Source of the DNA: an uncultured Lachnospiraceae bacterium
Lineage (GTDB): Bacteria; Bacillota; Clostridia; Lachnospirales; Lachnospiraceae
Direction: 5' to 3'
Length of the DNA stretch: 64,000 nt
NCBI GenBank assembly: GCA_947631505.1
Contig: CANRLR010000009.1
Location: 1 to 64,000 of the forward strand
The notes beneath the pieces were generated by a model. That model was not told where the DNA came from. It made no database searches and was given only the letters and a program-made list of their open reading frames with translations. Positions 28,203 to 55,778 of this stretch are shown one piece after another; within the stretch, counting starts at the first letter, position 1, and each line of letters opens with the position of its first letter. The translations under genes were made by a program, and so were the position numbers.

Positions 28203-29507
28203 ATGAGGATTGTTGCTTTAACAGAGGAATCAAAGAAAAATATTTTAGAAGATTTATTAAAAAGAAGTCCGAGTAACTATGATACGTATCAGGATACGGT
28301 CAATGAAATTCTGGCGGATGTTCGTGAGAATGGTGATAAAGCTGTATTTCAATATACAAAAAAATTTGATAAGGCAGAATTAACGGCAGATACTTTATAT
28401 GTAACGGAGGAAGAAATCAAAGAGGCCTATGAAAAGGTGGATTCTGAATTGATTGAGGTAATGAAAAAATCCATTCAGAATATTCGGGAGTTCCATGAAA
28501 AACAAGTACGCAACAGCTGGTTTACTACACGGGAGGACGGTGTGATTCTCGGTCAGCGTGTTACGGCATTAGAGAGTGTTGGTGTTTATGTCCCGGGAGG
28601 CAAGGCAGCTTATCCGTCCAGCGTGTTAATGAATATTATTCCGGCCCATGTGGCAGGAGTGAAGCGGATTGTTATGGTTACGCCTCCGGATGCAGATGGC
28701 AGAGTAAATCCGGCTACGTTAGTGGCGGCTCATCTCGCAGGTGCCACTGAGGTATGCAAGGTGGGGGGTGCGCAGGCAATCGCCGCATTAGCTTACGGAA
28801 CAGAATCGATTCCTAAAGTAGATAAAATTGCGGGACCAGGGAACATTTTTGTAGCACTGGCGAAGAAAACGGTATATGGTCATGTAAGTATTGATTCGGT
28901 TGCCGGTCCAAGCGAAATTATGGTACTGGCAGATGAAACGGCGAATCCGAGATATGTAGCAGCAGATATGCTTTCACAGGCAGAGCATGATGAACTGGCA
29001 TCTGCAATTCTTGTGACGACCAGTCAGGAGCTGGCAGAAAAAGTATCTGTTCAGATAGAGGAATTTACAGCGAACTTATCCCGTGGTGAAATTATTCAAA
29101 AATCCATTGATAATTATGGTTATATTCTCTTGGCAGAATCTATGGAAGATGCGATAGATGCCGTAAATGAAATTGCTTCGGAACACTTGGAGATTCTTAC
29201 GGCCAATCCGTTTGATACGATGACAAGGGTAAAAAATGCAGGAGCCATTTTCCTTGGAGAATACAGCAGTGAACCTCTCGGTGATTATTTTGCAGGCCCG
29301 AACCATATATTACCAACGAACGGAACAGCAAAATTTTTCTCTCCTTTGTCCGTCGATGATTTTATTAAAAAATCCAGTGTGATTTCTTATTCCAAGGAAG
29401 CATTAGAGGAAGTTCATGAAGATATCATCCGATTTGCCAGAGCAGAACATCTGACTGCTCACGCCAATTCGATTGCGGTCAGATTCGGTAAAGAGGTAAT
29501 GAATTGA
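28203..29507 (+). CDS. hisD: Histidinol dehydrogenase
   Basis: 434 aa from the ATG at 28203 (MRIVALTEESKK), chosen for the RBS AAGGAGG at 28188-28194. Signatures: GVYVPGGKAAYPSSVLMN, KVGGAQAIAALAYGTESI, IAGPGNIFVALAKK, AGPSEIMVLAD, LLSQAEHDE-type block MLSQAEHDELASA and EHLEILTANP. It oxidises histidinol to histidine in two NAD-dependent steps. The last four bases overlap the TTG start of the response regulator. Confidence 0.96.
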   Translation: MRIVALTEESKKNILEDLLKRSPSNYDTYQDTVNEILADVRENGDKAVFQYTKKFDKAELTADTLYVTEEEIKEAYEKVDSELIEVMKKSIQNIREFHEKQVRNSWFTTREDGVILGQRVTALESVGVYVPGGKAAYPSSVLMNIIPAHVAGVKRIVMVTPPDADGRVNPATLVAAHLAGATEVCKVGGAQAIAALAYGTESIPKVDKIAGPGNIFVALAKKTVYGHVSIDSVAGPSEIMVLADETANPRYVAADMLSQAEHDELASAILVTTSQELAEKVSVQIEEFTANLSRGEIIQKSIDNYGYILLAESMEDAIDAVNEIASEHLEILTANPFDTMTRVKNAGAIFLGEYSSEPLGDYFAGPNHILPTNGTAKFFSPLSVDDFIKKSSVISYSKEALEEVHEDIIRFARAEHLTAHANSIAVRFGKEVMN

Positions 29508-30220
29508 AACGGATACGGATCGGAATCTGTGAGGATGATTCGACGCAGCTGAACTACTTGAAACAGGAAGTAAAATGCTATTATGAAAAACAGGACTGTG
29601 AGGCCGTAGTGGAGGGATTTAAAAGTGCAGAGGAATTATTGTTTCAATATCCCTCCGGTCTGCCGTTTCATTGTCTGTTATTGGATATCGGACTAAAAGA
29701 AATGGATGGCGTCTCCTTGGCAAAACAGATTCGGAATCAAGATAAGGAGCTTCCGATTATTTTTATCACAGGAGAAAGAGATTATGTACTGGAGGGCTAC
29801 AAAGTAGGAGCGATGCGTTTTTTGCTAAAGCCATATAAACAGGAAGATTTAGCAGAAGCGTTGTCCTGCATTTGGCAGCGGCAGGAAGAACAGCAGCCGG
29901 AAAGCTATGTTGGTTTTTTCTATCAGGGAGAATACCGAAAACTTAAAAAATCGGACATTCTTTTTGCAGAGATTCGGGGACATTATTTGTATATTAAAAC
30001 AAAAGAATGTGAATATGAAAGGAAGGGCTCCATGAAACAGCTGCGGCAAGAATGGAATGATTCCTGTTTTTGTTTAGCCAATCGTTCGGTATTAGTAAAT
30101 TTATACAATGTGGAGCGGATTACCCGAACCGATTGTGAACTTTGCGATGGAAGCTCTGTGAAAGTGAGCCGGGGGTGCTATTCGGAGCTGAATCGGTGTT
30201 TTGTAGAATTCTTTATGTGA
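29504..30220 (+). CDS. LytTR-family response regulator
   Basis: 238 aa, TTG start at 29504 overlapping the hisD stop (TTGA) with AGAGGT upstream. Receiver domain: acidic pair CEDD at ~9-12, phospho-acceptor Asp in LLLDIGLKEMDG (~61), Thr in FITGE and Lys in FLLKPY. Residues ~140-238 form a LytTR DNA-binding domain (KKSDILFAEIRGHYLYIKT...FCLANRSVLVNLYNVERI). Partner of the kinase 39 nt downstream. A candidate operator lies at 30994-31027 in front of the ABC exporter. Confidence 0.88.
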   Translation: MKRIRIGICEDDSTQLNYLKQEVKCYYEKQDCEAVVEGFKSAEELLFQYPSGLPFHCLLLDIGLKEMDGVSLAKQIRNQDKELPIIFITGERDYVLEGYKVGAMRFLLKPYKQEDLAEALSCIWQRQEEQQPESYVGFFYQGEYRKLKKSDILFAEIRGHYLYIKTKECEYERKGSMKQLRQEWNDSCFCLANRSVLVNLYNVERITRTDCELCDGSSVKVSRGCYSELNRCFVEFFM

Positions 30221-30259
30221 CAAGAGGGAAATATTATATTGGAAAGGGGGAGAGATCTG

Positions 30260-30982
30260 ATGTGGCTGTGGATGTATGCCATTGGAATTACCCTTATATT
30301 TATAATTATTTTCATATACAATTATAAAAAGCGGGAACACCGTTTTTTTGAGTATCAGGATAAAATGATGTCTTCCCAATTGGAAGAAATGAATCAGATT
30401 TATATGACAATGAGAGGATGGCGTCATGATTATCATAACCATATGCAGAAAATCCGTGCTCATCTGGCATTGAAAGAATATGCTGAGGTGGATGAATACA
30501 TTGACCAAATGGAGCAGGAGTTAAAGAAAATTGATTTGAAGTATAAGTCCGGTCACACAGGAGTAGATGCTATTCTGAACAGCAAACTTTCGTTGGCAGA
30601 AAATCAGGGACTGAAGGTAAAATGCGATGCACAACTGCCGAAGATTCTATCCTTTAATCCGGTAGATTTGTGTGTTCTTTTGGGAAATCTCATTGATAAT
30701 GCGATTGAGGCATGCGAAAAGATGGAACAATCGCAGGAACGTTTTATCCGTGTTTATCTCTGTGTGAGAAAACAACAGTTCTATATTTCTGTCTGTAATT
30801 CTACAAATGAAGTTGTGCGGAAGCTGGATTGGGAATACATTTCGACAAAACGGGGAAATCACGGACACGGGCTGCTGCGAATGAATCAGATTGTGGAAAA
30901 GTACCAAGGGTATATGAATCGGCAAAATGAACCGGGGGCCTTTGTAACAGAAATTATGCTTCCTCTTCAGAATCGTTCCTGA
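30260..30982 (+). CDS. GHKL-type sensor histidine kinase
   Basis: 240 aa from the ATG at 30260 behind AAAGGGGGAGAG; a TTG at 30239 would lie before this RBS. A single membrane helix at ~4-20 is followed by a coiled segment and the H-box MRGWRHDYHNHMQ (His ~56), typical of AgrC-like kinases. The ATPase part has the N-box NLIDNAIEAC and glycine box RGNHGHGLLRM. With only one membrane helix it lacks the multi-pass AgrC sensor, so it may sense through another membrane protein, for example the neighbouring ABC exporter (inference). Confidence 0.85.
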   Translation: MWLWMYAIGITLIFIIIFIYNYKKREHRFFEYQDKMMSSQLEEMNQIYMTMRGWRHDYHNHMQKIRAHLALKEYAEVDEYIDQMEQELKKIDLKYKSGHTGVDAILNSKLSLAENQGLKVKCDAQLPKILSFNPVDLCVLLGNLIDNAIEACEKMEQSQERFIRVYLCVRKQQFYISVCNSTNEVVRKLDWEYISTKRGNHGHGLLRMNQIVEKYQGYMNRQNEPGAFVTEIMLPLQNRS

Positions 30983-31015
30983 ATGGTAGAAATACCATTC
31001 GTGAACGATTTTTTT
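30971..31015 (+). terminator. Intrinsic terminator after the kinase gene
   Basis: Nested inverted repeats AATCGTTC...GAACGATT and AATGGTA-GAAA-TACCATT followed by seven T's. The hairpin begins inside the last codons of the kinase, before its stop at 30980-30982. Confidence 0.8.
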
Positions 31016-31027
31016 CCATTTAGGAAC
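30994..31027 (+). promoter_or_regulatory. Candidate LytTR binding site (direct repeat)
   Basis: ACCATTCGTGAAC (30994-31006) and TCCATTTAGGAAC (31015-31027) are direct repeats, 21 nt start to start. Each 9-mer (ACCATTCGT, TCCATTTAG) fits 8 of 9 positions of the general LytTR consensus [TA][AC][CA]GTTN[AG][TG], with A for G at position 4; paired sites 12-13 nt apart are the known binding mode. The pair sits just upstream of the exporter promoter. Confidence 0.55.
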
Positions 31028-31031
31028 AAAT

Positions 31032-31061
31032 TAGACCGAAAGAAAAGTTTTCTGCTACAAT
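31032..31061 (+). promoter_or_regulatory. Candidate activated promoter for the ABC exporter pair
   Basis: -10 TACAAT (31056-31061) with the extended TG at 31053-31054 and only a weak -35 TAGACC (31032-31037, 18-nt spacer). A weak -35 next to a LytTR-like repeat fits an activator-dependent promoter. Confidence 0.5.
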
Positions 31062-31082
31062 GGGTTTCGTGGAGGTGATGTT

Positions 31083-32948
31083 ATGAAGGAGAAAAAAAAG
31101 AAGACCTATTCTATTGGCTCCAATATTATGTTTCTTTTGAGGGCGGCAGATGAGACTCATCCGGTAATGACGAGATTATGGCTCCCTCTTTTCATTTTGA
31201 CATTTCTATTTCAGCAGGTGCTTCAGGTCATGATTCCGGCAAGAGCAGTCTATGTCATTGAACATGAACTGGGGGCTATGTCCTTTTTGGTACAGGTAGG
31301 GGGGATTATTTTTCTCTATTTCATATTAAAGTCAGCTAGTATACTTTCACAGGAGAAATACGAAAGTTATAGCATGCTTATCCGGGTATATCAATTTGTC
31401 CGGATGATGATTAAGAAAAGCCTGACATCGGATTATTGCAACAGGGAAAAACATGAGAATCAGAAACTCATTGATCAGGCAAATGGGGCAATAAATTCAA
31501 ACTATGTCGGTGTGGAACTTATGTACCGCCAGCTTCCAAGGGCAGTTATGAATCTGACCGGCATGCTGCTATTCGGTGGTGCCATTTTATCCGTAGACGT
31601 CAGGATTCTTGTTGTATTGATTGCAATGTTACTATGCAATGTGGCAGCAAATCGTTTTGCAACGAATTATCTGAATTCCCACTTGGAGGAAAATGCCAGA
31701 TTAAATCGGAAGATTGATATAATAAAAGACCGGGCAAGGGATGTTGTCTGTGGTAAAGATATCCGTTTATACAAAATGGAAAAGTGGTTTACAGCACTGA
31801 TGCAGTCCTATGTGGAATGGGGACAGAAATGGCAGAAAGGAATTGAAAAGCATTTCTATCTGCCCGTCTTTTCCGATACGGTATTTATAGCCCTGCGGGA
31901 TGGTCTTGCCTATGTCATTTTAATTCAAAAGGCATTGGAGGGAAGTATTTCTTTGTCGGTATTTACATTAATGCTTGGAATTGTATCTGGTTTTTCTACA
32001 TGGATGTTCGCTTTTGTGGACTGCTATATGGACCTTATGAAAAGTAACAAAAGTATTTCGGATTTACGCAGTGTACTGGATCTGAAAGATACTTTTTTAC
32101 ATGGAGCGGGATATCCGGTATCAGAACAGGAGAGTTCCGATGCACCGGAAATTGAACTGCAGAATGTATCCTTTTCCTATGAAGAGGGAGGAAAGCAAAT
32201 TTTGTCCCGGATAAATCTGAAAATCGGAGCAGGTGAAAAGATTGCTTTGGTGGGAGCGAATGGAGAAGGAAAAACAACACTTGTGAAACTATTATGTGGA
32301 TTTTATCATCCGACCGAGGGACAGATTTTAGTAAATGGCAGGAATATTGAGGAATATGATATTGAACAATATTTCAAATTAGTCGGTGTGGTGTTTCAGG
32401 ACGTAGAACCGTTGCCATACCGTATTGTCAATCTTGTATCCGGCAGAGAAAAAGAGGATACTGACATGAATCGGTTCTGGCTGGCGGTAAAACGGGCAGG
32501 GCTGCAGGATAAAATTGAGTCTTTATCAAAAAAAGAAGACACTTACATTTCTAATGTTTTTGATGATAACGGAATTCAATTATCCGGTGGAGAAATACAG
32601 AAGCTGATGTTAGCAAGATGCATTTATAAAAATGCTCCCTTTCTTTTATTGGATGAGCCGACCTCGGCACTCGACCCATTGGCAGAGAGTGCTATGTATG
32701 AGGAATATAATCAGTTGACCAGACATAAAACCAGTATTTTTATTTCCCACCGCCTCGCCAGTACCCGTTTTTGTGACCGCATTCTGTTTTTGAAAGACGG
32801 AAAGATTGCGGAGGAGGGAACCCATGAGGAACTAATCCGGAATCAGGGCGAATATGCCAGAATTTATGAGATACAGAGCCATTATTACACAGAGCAGAAA
32901 GAAGAGGAAAATTTGTCAGAAGAGGAGGGAATCGGATATGAAGCATAA
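31083..32948 (+). CDS. ABC exporter half-transporter, subunit 1
   Basis: 621 aa. Six-helix transmembrane domain over ~30-320, then the nucleotide-binding domain with Walker A VGANGEGKTTLVKL, signature LSGGEIQKLMLAR, Walker B FLLLDEPTSALD and switch ISHRL. All ATPase residues are intact. RBS GGAGGTGAT precedes the ATG. It pairs with the next gene, overlapping by 11 nt, as a probable heterodimer. No C39 peptidase domain and no recognisable substrate gene are nearby, so substrate is unknown (drug, lipid or peptide). Confidence 0.88.
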   Translation: MKEKKKKTYSIGSNIMFLLRAADETHPVMTRLWLPLFILTFLFQQVLQVMIPARAVYVIEHELGAMSFLVQVGGIIFLYFILKSASILSQEKYESYSMLIRVYQFVRMMIKKSLTSDYCNREKHENQKLIDQANGAINSNYVGVELMYRQLPRAVMNLTGMLLFGGAILSVDVRILVVLIAMLLCNVAANRFATNYLNSHLEENARLNRKIDIIKDRARDVVCGKDIRLYKMEKWFTALMQSYVEWGQKWQKGIEKHFYLPVFSDTVFIALRDGLAYVILIQKALEGSISLSVFTLMLGIVSGFSTWMFAFVDCYMDLMKSNKSISDLRSVLDLKDTFLHGAGYPVSEQESSDAPEIELQNVSFSYEEGGKQILSRINLKIGAGEKIALVGANGEGKTTLVKLLCGFYHPTEGQILVNGRNIEEYDIEQYFKLVGVVFQDVEPLPYRIVNLVSGREKEDTDMNRFWLAVKRAGLQDKIESLSKKEDTYISNVFDDNGIQLSGGEIQKLMLARCIYKNAPFLLLDEPTSALDPLAESAMYEEYNQLTRHKTSIFISHRLASTRFCDRILFLKDGKIAEEGTHEELIRNQGEYARIYEIQSHYYTEQKEEENLSEEEGIGYEA

Positions 32949-34785
32949 TTGCAGAAAGAAACCACAAAGAAAAGCGAACATGAGAGATATGCTGAAACTC
33001 ATATCTGGAATGAGCCCCTGCTTTCTTCCCTTTACCATACTGGAAGCACTTTTGTCAACCGCTGTTGTCTTTATCAATATTATACTGAGTGCCGATATTT
33101 TGGATGGAATTGCCATTGGAAAACAACAGGAGTTAATCCATACGGCACTTTTTATGGTAGGCTTGAACCTCGTACTGGCTCTTATCCGATGGGGAATTAA
33201 CAAATGGCTGATTGTTACAAGGCGTAAGATCGAGGATTCCGTATCAAAGCAGCTTTCGCAAAAAAGTTTGAATTTGGACTATCAGATTTTAGAAAAAACC
33301 GGAACATTGGATTATATTCAGAAAGCGGAATCTGCTTCCCAGGCCAATGGCGGAATTACCAGCTACTGTGTTCTGCTCGGAGAGGGAATTACACAGATTG
33401 CATCCATCCTGTACGCTGCTATACTTCTGAGTGATTTCTTTTTAGAAAGCGGAAAAAGTGAAGATTCTTTTTTGCGTCTGATGACGGCACCACAGGCGGG
33501 AATTGTAATGTTTGTCCTGATGGGAGCAGTTATTTTTCTTGTTTATATACTGTCCAAAAAGCAGAGGAAACTCAATTATGAATTTTTGGAGCATAATATA
33601 CGGGGAAACAGAGAATTCGGCTCTTATTTTCAATTTCTCTATAATTATAATATTGGAAAACAGGTGCGAATCTATCATATGTTCCCAATGATATACCAAA
33701 GATTAAAAAAACTGGAATCCACAATGACAGAACGAACACACAAAATGACAAATCAATACCTGAAACTTATTGTGATTGCGGATGCCGCCTCCATTTTGTT
33801 ACTTTTCGTATATTATTGCTTTGTCGGGTTAAGAGCAGCAGCCGGTGCTATTACTTTGGGAGAAATGACAATTTATATCGGTGCCCTTACCAGTTTTTCA
33901 GACAACCTGTCGGGGGTATTCACCGCTTTGAATGCAATTGGACTTAAAAATGACTTTCTGAGCAATTATGTGGATTTTCTTCAACTGAAAAACGAAAAAT
34001 ATGACGGAACACTTCCCATTGAGAAACGTCTGGACCATGATTATGAACTGGAATTTCGGAATGTTTCTTTTCACTATCCCAACAGTGAAGAGCTGGTACT
34101 AAAAAATATTACAACAAAAATCCGGGTTGGGCGGAAAATGGCAATTGTGGGAAAGAACGGTTCTGGAAAATCTACGTTCATCAAACTATTATGCCGTTTG
34201 TATGACCCTACAGAAGGAGAAATTCTATTGAATGGTATTGACATTAAAAAATATGATTACGATGAATACCGTCAGATTTTCAGTGTGGTATTTCAGGATT
34301 TCCGGCTCTTCTCGTTTCCTGTGGCACAAAATGTTGCAGCAGGGCTTGTATATGACGAGGAAAAGGTATGGAAGGCACTGGAACAGGTCGGTATAGCAGA
34401 ACGGGTCAAAAAGATGGAAAAAGGGCTTGATACCGTTATTTTTAAACAGGAAGACGAGGGAGTGGAAATTTCCGGAGGGGAGGCTCAGAAGATCGCCATT
34501 GCAAGAGCTCTTTACAAAGACGCTCCGGTCGTTATATTAGACGAGCCAACGGCAGCACTGGACCCGGTATCAGAACTGGAAATATATGAGAGGTTTGATG
34601 AAATGGTGGAAGAGAAAACAGCGATTTATATTTCCCACCGTATGTCCAGCTGCCGGTTCTGTGAAAACATTGTTGTCTTTGAGAATGGAAATATTGTTCA
34701 AATGGGAAGTCATGATGCACTGGTGAAACAGCATGGACTGTATCAGGAACTGTGGAATGCTCAGGCACAGTATTATCAGGGATAA
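32938..34785 (+). CDS. ABC exporter half-transporter, subunit 2
   Basis: 615 aa from the ATG at 32938, inside the last codons of subunit 1, with AGAGGAGGG upstream. The transmembrane domain covers ~20-320 and the ATPase domain has VGKNGSGKSTFIKL, ISGGEAQKIAIAR, VVILDEPTAALD and ISHRM. Both ATPase sites of the presumed heterodimer look canonical by eye. It is the last gene of this unit; rplS begins with its own promoter. Confidence 0.88.
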   Translation: MKHNCRKKPQRKANMRDMLKLISGMSPCFLPFTILEALLSTAVVFINIILSADILDGIAIGKQQELIHTALFMVGLNLVLALIRWGINKWLIVTRRKIEDSVSKQLSQKSLNLDYQILEKTGTLDYIQKAESASQANGGITSYCVLLGEGITQIASILYAAILLSDFFLESGKSEDSFLRLMTAPQAGIVMFVLMGAVIFLVYILSKKQRKLNYEFLEHNIRGNREFGSYFQFLYNYNIGKQVRIYHMFPMIYQRLKKLESTMTERTHKMTNQYLKLIVIADAASILLLFVYYCFVGLRAAAGAITLGEMTIYIGALTSFSDNLSGVFTALNAIGLKNDFLSNYVDFLQLKNEKYDGTLPIEKRLDHDYELEFRNVSFHYPNSEELVLKNITTKIRVGRKMAIVGKNGSGKSTFIKLLCRLYDPTEGEILLNGIDIKKYDYDEYRQIFSVVFQDFRLFSFPVAQNVAAGLVYDEEKVWKALEQVGIAERVKKMEKGLDTVIFKQEDEGVEISGGEAQKIAIARALYKDAPVVILDEPTAALDPVSELEIYERFDEMVEEKTAIYISHRMSSCRFCENIVVFENGNIVQMGSHDALVKQHGLYQELWNAQAQYYQG

Positions 34786-35294: not shown

Positions 35295-35315
35295 TAAGCC
35301 GCATTACCAACGGGA

Positions 35316-35352
35316 AAAGTTTCTTTGTGCTTGCACAATAGAAACTTTTTTT
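35316..35352 (+). terminator. Intrinsic terminator after rplS
   Basis: AAAGTTTCT-TTGTGC pairs with GCACAA-T-AGAAACTTT with one bulged base, followed by a T-run into TTTTTTTCG. Strong stem directly after rplS. Confidence 0.85.
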
Positions 35353-35388
35353 CGTTTGTAATTGATGTTATTTCATGGAGGGCAGATT

Positions 35389-35994
35389 ATGAATCTCAGG
35401 TTTGAAGAAGAAATGAAACGGGAACGGCGCCGGGATGCTTTCAAGGAATTGCTTTGGTTTCTTTTGATTGCTGCTATTGTCATTTTATTTGCATGGTTAA
35501 TCGTACGATTTGCTTTAAAAAAAGTAAATGTCATTGGCAGTGCTATGGAAACAACCCTCTATAATGGCGAGGATGTCATTGTTAACAAAATTTCTTATGC
35601 CATTTTATCGCCGGGAAGGGAAGCTGTGATAGCCTTTTATCCGGACTTAGAAGAGGAAGAAGAAGCGGTATTGGATGATTCTGCTGTTCTGATCCGCCGG
35701 GTTATTGGTTTGCCGGGAGAAAAAATCCGAATTACCGATGGAAAAATTTATATTAATGAAGAAGAATGGAAAGAGAAATATAATTTTGGTGAAATGGTGT
35801 CGGCCGGTATTGCCAACAGTGAAATTACATTGGGGGAAGATGAATATTTTGTGTTAAGTGACAACCGCAATGATATGGATGACAGCCGGAACGAAGCGTT
35901 TACTAAAGTAAAGAGAGAGAATATAATCGGCAAAGTAATTTTGAAATTTCATCCGCTTTCTCTGATTGGCGGACCGCAACAGGAGGAACAATAA
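35389..35994 (+). CDS. Signal peptidase I homologue lacking both catalytic residues
   Basis: 201 aa from the ATG at 35389 (MNLRFEEEMKRERR), with GGAGGG upstream. One membrane helix at ~20-40, then an S26 fold: box B reads VIGSAMETTL where active enzymes have V-G-SM--TL, so the nucleophile serine is Ala52 (GCT, 35542-35544). Box D reads LIRRVIGLPGEKI where active enzymes have KR-IGLPG, so the general-base lysine is Arg103 (CGC, 35695-35697). The rest (EDEYFVLSDNRNDMDDSRN) is well conserved. It should not cleave signal peptides by the known mechanism. It shares its last base with the rbgA start, so it is co-expressed with rbgA and the active lepB downstream. Confidence 0.85.
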   Translation: MNLRFEEEMKRERRRDAFKELLWFLLIAAIVILFAWLIVRFALKKVNVIGSAMETTLYNGEDVIVNKISYAILSPGREAVIAFYPDLEEEEEAVLDDSAVLIRRVIGLPGEKIRITDGKIYINEEEWKEKYNFGEMVSAGIANSEITLGEDEYFVLSDNRNDMDDSRNEAFTKVKRENIIGKVILKFHPLSLIGGPQQEEQ

Positions 35995-36842
35995 TGCATT
36001 TTCAATGGTACCCGGGACATATGACGAAGGCAAAGCGTGCGATGCAGGAAGACATCAAACTAATTGATGTTGTAATTGAGTTAGTGGATGCCAGAATTCC
36101 GCGCAGCAGTAAAAATCCCGATATTGATGAGCTGGCAAAACAAAAAGCAAGGGTGCTTCTGCTGAATAAAAGTGACATGGCAGATGCAGCTGTGCAGGGG
36201 GAGTGGATTCGCTACTATGAGCAAGCGGGTTATCTTGTATTAGCCGTAAATGCGAAGAAGAAAAATGAATTAAAGCAAATCAATGCGTTGATACAAGAGG
36301 CATGTAAAGAAAAGATTGAGAGAGACCGGAAACGAGGAATCTTAAATCGTCCGGTGCGGGCAATGATTGTGGGAATTCCGAATGTGGGAAAATCCACTTT
36401 TATTAATAGTTTTGCGGGCAGAGCCTGTGCAAAAACAGGAAATAAGCCCGGAGTGACAAAAGGGAAACAGTGGATTCGTCTGAATAAACAAGTGGAACTG
36501 TTAGATACGCCGGGAATTTTGTGGCCCAAATTTGAAGACCAGCAGGTCGGTCAGCACTTGGCATTTATTGGCTCCATCAAGGATGAATTGATTCAAAGTG
36601 TTGATTTGGCTTTAGATCTGATCGAATTTTTAACAAAAACCTATGAAGGAATCCTGAACGGGCATTATAATGTGCAAGAGAACTTAGATTCTGTTGATAT
36701 ATTGCGCCAATTAGCGATAAATAGAGGCTGTATTCAAAAGGGAAATGAACCGAACTATGAAAAAGCTGCCTATTTATTGTTGGATGACTTTCGAAATGCC
36801 AAATTGGGAAGAATAACAATAGAAAGACCAAATGAGAGATGA
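35994..36842 (+). CDS. rbgA: Ribosome biogenesis GTPase RbgA (YlqF)
   Basis: 282 aa. Starts MHFQWYPGHMTKAKRAM, the family hallmark, followed by a circularly permuted GTPase: G4 LNKSDMAD first, then G1 GIPNVGKSTFINSFAGRA, G2/G3 LLDTPGILWPKFED. It assists late assembly of the 50S subunit. Preceded at zero distance by the dead signal peptidase and followed, with small gap, by an active one. Confidence 0.95.
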   Translation: MHFQWYPGHMTKAKRAMQEDIKLIDVVIELVDARIPRSSKNPDIDELAKQKARVLLLNKSDMADAAVQGEWIRYYEQAGYLVLAVNAKKKNELKQINALIQEACKEKIERDRKRGILNRPVRAMIVGIPNVGKSTFINSFAGRACAKTGNKPGVTKGKQWIRLNKQVELLDTPGILWPKFEDQQVGQHLAFIGSIKDELIQSVDLALDLIEFLTKTYEGILNGHYNVQENLDSVDILRQLAINRGCIQKGNEPNYEKAAYLLLDDFRNAKLGRITIERPNER

Positions 36843-36850
36843 GGATTAAT

Positions 36851-37585
36851 ATGTCAGAGAAGAAGGACATTGATGAAAGCCTGCGAGTCTGCGAAGAAAT
36901 TCAGAAGCGTTTTTCCCGGCCGGATACTCCAGAACAAGAATCGGTTCCGCAAATCCCAGTGAATGCTTTAAATTTAGAATCCGCGGATAAGCAGGGAAAA
37001 AAGAAGCAAAAAGAAAGAAAAAGCAATGATAGAGATTGGTCAGATGCAGAATACCAAGAGAGCCATCCTTTTTTGCGGACACTTCTGGGTGTTCTGATCT
37101 GTGCGTTATTGGCACTGGTTCTATCCTTGGTGATAACGGAATATGTAGCCCATCATACTTCTGTGGAGGGGAGTTCCATGGAATCTACGCTATCTAATGG
37201 AGACCAGTTAATTGTGGAAAATATCAGCTATTATTTTCATGAACCAGAACGTTTTGATGTGATTACATTTCCGTATGATAATAACGTCAGCTATATTAAA
37301 AGAATTATTGGCTTACCGGGAGAAACGGTGCAGATTATGGATGGTACGATTTTTATCAATGGTGAAATACTGCAGGAGAATTATGGTAATGCCGATATGG
37401 AGGATGATGGACTGGCTGCTGATATCATTCATCTTGGTGAGGATGAATATTTTGTGTTAGGAGATAATCGGAATGCCAGCATTGACAGCCGGAAACCGGA
37501 AGTGGGTAATGTGAAAAGGGAAAATATCTCCGGTAAGGCGTGGGTTCGTTTTTATCCTTTTGATAAAATGCAGGTGATTCAATAG
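36851..37585 (+). CDS. lepB: Signal peptidase I, active-type
   Basis: 244 aa from the ATG at 36851 (MSEKKDIDESLRV) with GATGAGG upstream. A ~75-residue charged N-terminal extension precedes the single membrane helix (LLGVLICALLALVLSLVITEY). Nucleophile box VEGSSMESTLSNGDQL and lysine box SYIKRIIGLPGETV are both intact, as is GDNRNASIDSR. It removes signal peptides on the outer face of the membrane. Compare the inactive paralogue upstream of rbgA. Confidence 0.93.
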   Translation: MSEKKDIDESLRVCEEIQKRFSRPDTPEQESVPQIPVNALNLESADKQGKKKQKERKSNDRDWSDAEYQESHPFLRTLLGVLICALLALVLSLVITEYVAHHTSVEGSSMESTLSNGDQLIVENISYYFHEPERFDVITFPYDNNVSYIKRIIGLPGETVQIMDGTIFINGEILQENYGNADMEDDGLAADIIHLGEDEYFVLGDNRNASIDSRKPEVGNVKRENISGKAWVRFYPFDKMQVIQ

Positions 37586-55169: not shown

Positions 55170-55778
55170 ATGAATGAATCACAGGTAATAGAACAGACTC
55201 AGGAGATGAAAACAAATAAGGAAAAGAAAAAGCGTTCACCGATTAGTTATGTTGTTGAAGGACTGATTTATATTGTGCTAATCGTAGTTTGTGTCTATGT
55301 TGTTCCAAATTATGTTATTCAGCGAACGGTTGTGAGCGGTGAATCTATGGAAGATACCTTACATGATAAAGAGAGTCTTTTAGTGGATAAAGTTTCTTAC
55401 CGGATTCATAACCCGGAACGTTATGATATTATCGTATTTTATCCGAGAGGAAAAGAAGTAGAGGAATATTATGTAAAACGTATTTACGGTTTACCGGGAG
55501 AGACGATTCAGATAAAGGAAAATGATATTTACATTAATGGTGAGAAAATAGAGGATCCTTATGCAAAGGATGCTATGCTGAGTGCTGGACTGGCAGAAGA
55601 ACCGTACACATTAGGAGACGATGAGTATTTTGTTCTTGGTGACCATCGTTCTGTAAGTATGGACAGCCGGACAACATCCGACATGGATCCGGATGGTCCG
55701 GGACCAGTAAAGTTTGAAAATATTGCAGGAAAAGTTATTTTGAGAATTTGGCCGCTGAGTAAATTTGGTGTGCCGTGA
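55170..55778 (+). CDS. Signal peptidase I, active-type (third paralogue)
   Basis: 202 aa. One membrane helix (YVVEGLIYIVLIVVCVYVVPNY) precedes the S26 core: nucleophile box VSGESMEDTLHDKESL, base box YYVKRIYGLPGETIQI with lysine intact, and GDHRSVSMDSRTTSD. RBS GGAGGGAG upstream. Inserted between gmk and rpoZ, which are usually adjacent in Firmicutes. Together with the genes at 35389 and 36851 it makes three S26 paralogues in the window. Confidence 0.92.
   Translation: MNESQVIEQTQEMKTNKEKKKRSPISYVVEGLIYIVLIVVCVYVVPNYVIQRTVVSGESMEDTLHDKESLLVDKVSYRIHNPERYDIIVFYPRGKEVEEYYVKRIYGLPGETIQIKENDIYINGEKIEDPYAKDAMLSAGLAEEPYTLGDDEYFVLGDHRSVSMDSRTTSDMDPDGPGPVKFENIAGKVILRIWPLSKFGVP

Follow-up and report, generated by a model that had tools for sequence, protein, structure and literature searches.

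A signal peptidase I paralogue with a replaced catalytic dyad, retained between rplS and rbgA in a genus of the Lachnospiraceae

Signal peptidases lacking their catalytic residues are known in staphylococci and streptococci, and among those we have met, SipA of Streptococcus pyogenes is the only one with a demonstrated role. In Staphylococcus aureus, SpsA is a type I signal peptidase paralogue without either catalytic residue that is dispensable, the active SpsB being encoded in the same genome, as stated in the excerpted text of PMC12445088. For SipA, the available sections of PMC4049620 report that its function requires neither Asp48 nor Lys83 and propose that it binds peptide, in a way similar to that in which arylomycin occupies the cleft of the Escherichia coli signal peptidase. 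Here we describe a type I signal peptidase paralogue from an uncultured Lachnospiraceae bacterium, located in a stretch of 64,000 nucleotides (hereafter the window; positions 1 to 64,000 of the forward strand of contig CANRLR010000009.1, assembly GCA_947631505.1). The gene (35389..35994, +; 201 amino acids) lies between rplS and rbgA, a position that will be referred to as the slot. The slot protein is probably a retained, membrane-anchored pseudo-protease that does not cut and acts by binding or as an adaptor.

Active-site residues and conservation of the slot gene

The slot gene starts with an ATG at 35389, preceded by a ribosome-binding site, GGAGG, that is read directly at 35377-35381 (+); a TTG at 35362 is a less likely, longer alternative start. 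Its product retains the fold and the scaffold motifs of Peptidase_S26 (108.6 bits against the Pfam model, cut-off 22.9), and a profile comparison matched it to signal peptidases of known structure, the alignments falling within positions 43-196. Hydropathy analysis predicts a membrane anchor with a Kyte-Doolittle maximum of 3.07 at residues 21-39, and the structural model, as a prediction only, has a helix at residues 3-42; based on both, the transmembrane helix was assigned to 35449..35517 (+). The protein was aligned with the two other S26 paralogues of the window, LepB (36839..37585, +), which carries a cytosolic N-terminal extension, and a third copy, called LepC (55170..55778, +), both of which have the active-site Ser, Lys, Gly and Ser intact. 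All four active-site positions examined are altered in the slot protein: Ala52 (codon GCT, 35542..35544, +) stands in place of the nucleophilic serine preceding Met in box B, Arg103 (CGC, 35695..35697, +) in place of the general base lysine in box D, Ser157 (35857..35859, +) at the position of the conserved glycine (E. coli Gly272), and Met163 (35875..35877, +) at that of E. coli Ser278, so that none of the residues marking an active S26A enzyme is present. An earlier note on this DNA, made from the sequence alone, had placed Ala52 and Arg103 correctly in coordinates, frame and start, and had considered the other two S26 genes to be of the active type, in agreement with our alignment; it had missed the changes at Ser157 and Met163, the repeated loss of the dyad across the family, and a conserved tail proper to the genus. 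The slot protein also passes the curated NCBIfam signal peptidase I model sigpep_I_bact with 106 bits (cut-off 47). Automatic annotation would thus call a protein that is probably dead an active signal peptidase, which should serve as a warning.

Among the 39 genus genomes searched, one of which is the window's, 34 contain an open-frame slot orthologue. In three of the five that lack one (G004, G005 and G009) the contig ends at LepB, and the other two genomes, G010 and G029, are only partly complete (68 and 81%). The base position is occupied by Arg in 34/34 orthologues, and the replacement is therefore more than chance or an assembly error. The Ser position reads Ala in 22, Ser in 10 and Thr and Val in one each; at the Gly272 position, 24 orthologues have Ser, ten have Cys and none has Gly, and the Ser278 equivalent is kept in 2/34. 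Several active-site residues drift within the genus, and seven changes in the Ser column were counted on a tree (FastTree) built without the catalytic columns. The suggestion that Ala and Arg are both fixed accordingly holds for Arg, but not for Ala. The opposite case, Ala/Arg in this genome only and Ser/Lys in its orthologues, does not apply, as Ser/Lys occurs in 0/34. Ser and Lys are kept together in 37/37 LepB orthologues and in 32/32 orthologues of the third copy, with one further fragment uncounted.

The slot gene is under strong purifying selection. One-ratio estimates of the ratio of nonsynonymous to synonymous substitution rates (omega) were obtained after removal of columns filled in less than 80% of rows and, from the LepB set, of the truncated G017 sequence. 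For the slot gene (33 sequences, 201 codons) the value is 0.069, compared with 0.092 for LepB (32 sequences, 212 codons) and 0.054 for the third copy (32 sequences, 179 codons). Pairwise medians, calculated from pairs with a synonymous distance (dS) of 0.05-1.2, are 0.033 (17 pairs), 0.143 (17) and 0.033 (18), respectively; the LepB values may be raised by its fast-evolving cytosolic part. The codon for Arg103 differs between species (AGA, CGA, CGC, CGG and CGT), and this synonymous turnover indicates that selection keeps the residue. Relocation of the dyad was rejected: in the alignment of 35 rows, no column beyond residue 45 has Lys or His in at least 90%, or Lys plus His in at least 80%, and no row has a Lys at positions 100-106. 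As the outer domain is devoid of a conserved Lys or His, the dyad has not moved. The absence of Ser/Lys from all genus orthologues, the lack of a conserved alternative Ser-Lys pair and the low omega, below that of LepB, all agree with the view of a retained pseudo-protease taken in the earlier note, which had proposed a low dN/dS as a check.

The slot position across the family

Using RbgA as anchor, we surveyed the slot in 163 genomes, of which 130 lie outside the genus. The latter comprise 129 of 130 searched genomes (all but G175) and G135, and were picked by hand, not at random, from 397 genomes of the family. The state of nine was known beforehand (G065, G410 and G135 broken; G053, G185, G198, G226, G322 and G359 intact), and a tenth, G105, was added in the knowledge that it shares a genus with G410. 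G386 and G369, intact in an earlier alignment, are outside the survey, G197 went unscored owing to a gap in its Ser column, and G014, counted among the 34 orthologues, was left out of the survey and the trees, its rbgA lying off the contig. An S26 gene occupies the slot in 125 of the 130 non-genus genomes, with the dyad states Ser/Lys (109), Ser/Arg (7), Ala/Arg (4), Ala/Lys (2), Ser/Leu, Asn/Ala and unscored (one each). Thus, 15/124 scorable slots from 14 genera are broken, or 11/114 without the ten genomes of known state or genus. Ala accompanies Arg in 4/11 Arg rows vs 2/111 Lys rows (p 0.0005, relatedness not corrected). Among the S26 copies downstream of rbgA, Ser/Lys is found in 130/133, and in 121/123 first downstream copies. 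At every genus locus whose sequence covers these genes, rplS is followed in turn by the slot gene, rbgA and LepB. The place before rbgA, an argument of the earlier note, is also common to intact copies across the family.

On the tree, slot and downstream copies are split by a single change, and the pair is therefore probably older than the sampled family. The loss of the dyad falls inside the family's own slot clade, with at least 13 dyad-state changes among slot copies and three among downstream copies (FastTree, catalytic columns left out); a second tree (IQ-TREE quick, 146 rows: 140 slot and 6 downstream), which leaves out 18 of the 33 genus rows, gave 12 changes among slot copies. Using 16 broken copies as BLAST queries, with the window's copy representing the genus, eight scored nearer to an intact copy, for example G065 (67% to G177), G115 (62% to G073) and G357 (59% to G051), one was tied (G092), and seven were nearer to another broken copy (the pairs G410/G105 and G063/G326, as well as G229, G135 and the window's copy). 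One gene position with about a dozen separate losses beside dyad-bearing relatives thus offers a natural series on the non-cutting signal peptidase fold. The downstream copies include a mirror image in G107, where the slot is Ser/Lys and the downstream S26 (L245) has Ser/Arg and Ala at the Gly272 position. Two further S26 copies downstream of rbgA, L242 in G116 (Gly/Arg) and L273 in G167 (Gly/Glu), each adjoin an intact copy.

A class-level sample of 60 genomes yielded a match in 56, and the loci of the best 30 of these 56 matches, 28 of them outside the family, were read. Among these best 30, an S26 gene lies upstream of rbgA in 21/28 out-of-family loci, in each case with Ser/Lys/Gly/Ser, and in none of the 28 does an S26 gene follow rbgA within 1.5 kb. 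For each of the 21, the nearest family rows are LepB copies from downstream of rbgA and not slot copies; the slot clade forms one side of a branch with support 97. Thus, the tandem pair appears to be a family feature, and the housekeeping role probably resides with the downstream copy.

Proposed function and alternative explanations

To define what the genus slot proteins have lost and gained, 33 of them were set against two Ser/Lys sets, one of 109 slot proteins and one of 121 LepB proteins. Conservation seen in both of these sets is absent from the genus at columns 52, 79, 157, 159, 163 and 172, four of which belong to the Ser box or the GDNRxxS box. The Lys-to-Arg change at position 103 was scored as newly fixed. 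Further columns conserved only in the genus are Asn2, Leu3, Phe5, Glu6-8, Lys10, Arg14 and Glu20 at the N-terminus, and Ile49, Ser51, Ala82, Asp162, Phe171, Val183 and Gly195-Pro196 in the remainder, Ala82, Asp162, Phe171 and Val183 each substituting a different residue common in the Ser/Lys sets. The N-terminal columns form a cytosolic tail, MNL(R/N)FEEExKxxxR (35389..35430, +), in which positions 2, 3, 5-8, 10 and 14 are 94-100% conserved among 33 genus sequences. The pattern, composed after viewing the genus alignment, is present in 33/33 genus copies and in G135, in 0/109 Ser/Lys slot copies and in 0/14 other broken slot copies; a looser pattern matches 3/109 of the Ser/Lys copies. The tail suggests a partner in the cytosol not shared by active slot copies.

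With the dyad gone, strong selection, and fold and anchor kept, binding is the simplest function. The outer domain might hold a peptide or the c-region of a preprotein in the old cleft, or might dock on LepB, while the tail would recruit a cytosolic partner and Arg103 would probably be retained to fill the lysine cavity or to touch the ligand. G135, of the nearest other genus sampled, is Ser/Arg with the equivalents of Gly272, Ser278 and Asn159 intact and the tail MNLNFEDE present. This single intermediate suggests a stepwise order of loss, in which Lys to Arg and the tail may have come first, two Lys-supporting positions second and the drift of Ser last.

It might further be speculated that the slot protein binds signal peptides as a partner of LepB, or regulates it, as the earlier note had proposed. 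The median Ser position of LepB is 187 in the genus, 131 in G135 and 49 in 89 other genomes, and this long cytosolic extension in the genus and G135 makes a pair of LepB and slot protein attractive. A motif near the LepB start, E(E/D)SLxxC, occurs in 23/33 genus genomes, in G135 and in five other genera; the extension is variable, and eight other genus genomes begin differently, with DIDxIxxxQG. Outside the genus, the motif accompanies broken slots in 3/6 vs 8/80 genomes (Fisher p 0.026, motif chosen post hoc), and a link across genera was dismissed as not significant once the tree was considered. A two-subunit signal peptidase, with the dead copy as recognition or scaffold subunit and LepB as the cutter, joined via the conserved cytosolic N-termini of both, would be a tentative and rather unlikely version of such a partnership; if true, the repeated loss of the dyad would reflect a division of labour that arose several times in a pair already present.

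Several points weigh against binding as the function. The adjacency of LepB is weak evidence of partnership, since Ser/Lys slot copies share the gene order, and the tail cannot account for the 14 other broken slot copies, which do not have it. Ser is kept in 10/34 genus orthologues, and a weak Ser/Arg enzyme is hence possible in those members. A SipA mutant meant to block the cleft still polymerized pili, according to the accessible part of PMC4049620. Finally, the predicted slot structure places SipA only 1.2 Z units ahead of E. coli signal peptidase, and in the LepB model used as a control, which is poor (pLDDT 66.4), SpsB and SipA were tied, so that the resemblance to SipA says little on function.

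Among the alternatives, it is unlikely, though conceivable, that the slot protein is a decoy or sponge, shielding LepB by binding arylomycin-type signal peptidase inhibitors or excess signal peptides. The predicted fold is kept, two cleft-strand positions are still hydrophobic (Ile at 49 in 33/35 rows, Ile or Phe at 102 in 35/35), and arylomycin and SipA provide a precedent for cleft binding in the portion of PMC4049620 at hand; however, a decoy leaves the conserved cytosolic tail unexplained and its genus-wide retention would require steady inhibitor pressure. Continued cleavage, in which Arg would act as an atypical base (Ser/Arg) or the nucleophile would have moved, for instance to Ser51, appears quite improbable. 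Ser51 is present in 32/35 rows and a Ser at 52 in 11/35, and Arg might serve as a base at high pH; an Lys-to-Arg mutant of LexA is said to show residual cleavage, a result that our literature search did not find. In the window's slot protein, however, position 52 is not Ser, one orthologue lacks Ser at both 51 and 52, the Gly272 and Ser278 equivalents are gone, and Lys or His is not conserved beyond residue 45.

That the gene owes its retention to its RNA or to translational coupling to rbgA, rather than to its protein, is highly improbable. The rbgA gene (ylqF; 35994..36842, +; TIGR03596, 359.6 bits, cut-off 208.2) has its ATG overlapping the slot-gene stop and its ribosome-binding site within the slot gene, as coupling would have it, but coupling needs neither purifying selection at the protein level nor fixed residues. 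Decay of the slot gene, which would fit the drift of the active site within the genus and the five of 130 non-genus genomes without S26 in the slot, is hardly credible and was rejected, given 34/34 open frames, an omega of 0.069, an Arg fixed despite synonymous turnover, the conserved tail, and the contig ends at LepB in three of the five genus genomes that lack the gene.

Upstream, the slot gene is preceded by rplS (ribosomal protein L19; 34947..35294, +; TIGR01024, 154.9 bits, cut-off 90.7; supported by gene order). The interval contains a hairpin followed by a T run (35309..35356, +; minimum free energy -26.4, z -3.69), possibly the rplS terminator, in which case less transcription would run on from rplS into the slot gene. 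The hairpin is absent from the listing of a consensus terminator scan, and a T run of at least six was found in 3/31 intergenic regions between rplS and slot gene in the genus. A consensus promoter scan returned promoter-like sites no more frequently than in shuffles. Just upstream of rplS, at 29504-34785, are genes for a LytTR response regulator, a GHKL-type kinase and two ABC transporter genes, an arrangement that we take to resemble peptide export or pheromone systems.

Comparison with described signal peptidases and relatives

In common with active S26A enzymes (LepB, SpsB and SipS), the slot protein has the fold, the membrane anchor and a conserved scaffold; unlike these, it is devoid of the Ser, the Lys and the equivalents of Gly272 and Ser278. 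In phage 186 CI, a repressor from another family of the LexA/signal peptidase superfamily, an Arg at the base position touches a main-chain oxygen of the Omega subzone, as described in the excerpts of PMC12984324, and only this Arg is common to CI and the slot protein.

SipA has Asp48 and Gly85 at the dyad positions, where the slot protein has Ala and Arg, and it acts in pilus assembly, whereas the slot gene lies between rplS and rbgA, outside any pilin-sortase cluster. A pilus role is not supported by gene context: the three sortase genes found in the genome are on contigs C13, C7 and C11, the window being on C9.

The slot protein is SpsA-like in that it has no dyad and is accompanied by a conserved Ser/Lys LepB encoded one gene downstream, at the loci where the stretch covers both. 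The spsA gene presumably adjoins spsB, at a locus that we take to be other than rplS-rbgA. As far as the text of the two sources could be searched, the name SpsA does not occur in PMC11898559, and the matches displayed for PMC13104630 concern signal peptides of protein A and entries in the reference list. Reports on the rplS-rbgA slot locus were not found in a literature search of open-licence PMC papers. With SpsA and SipA already known, the features that we put forward as probably new are the Ala/Arg signature, the place between rplS and rbgA, the genus-wide retention, and the parallel loss of the dyad in one gene position.
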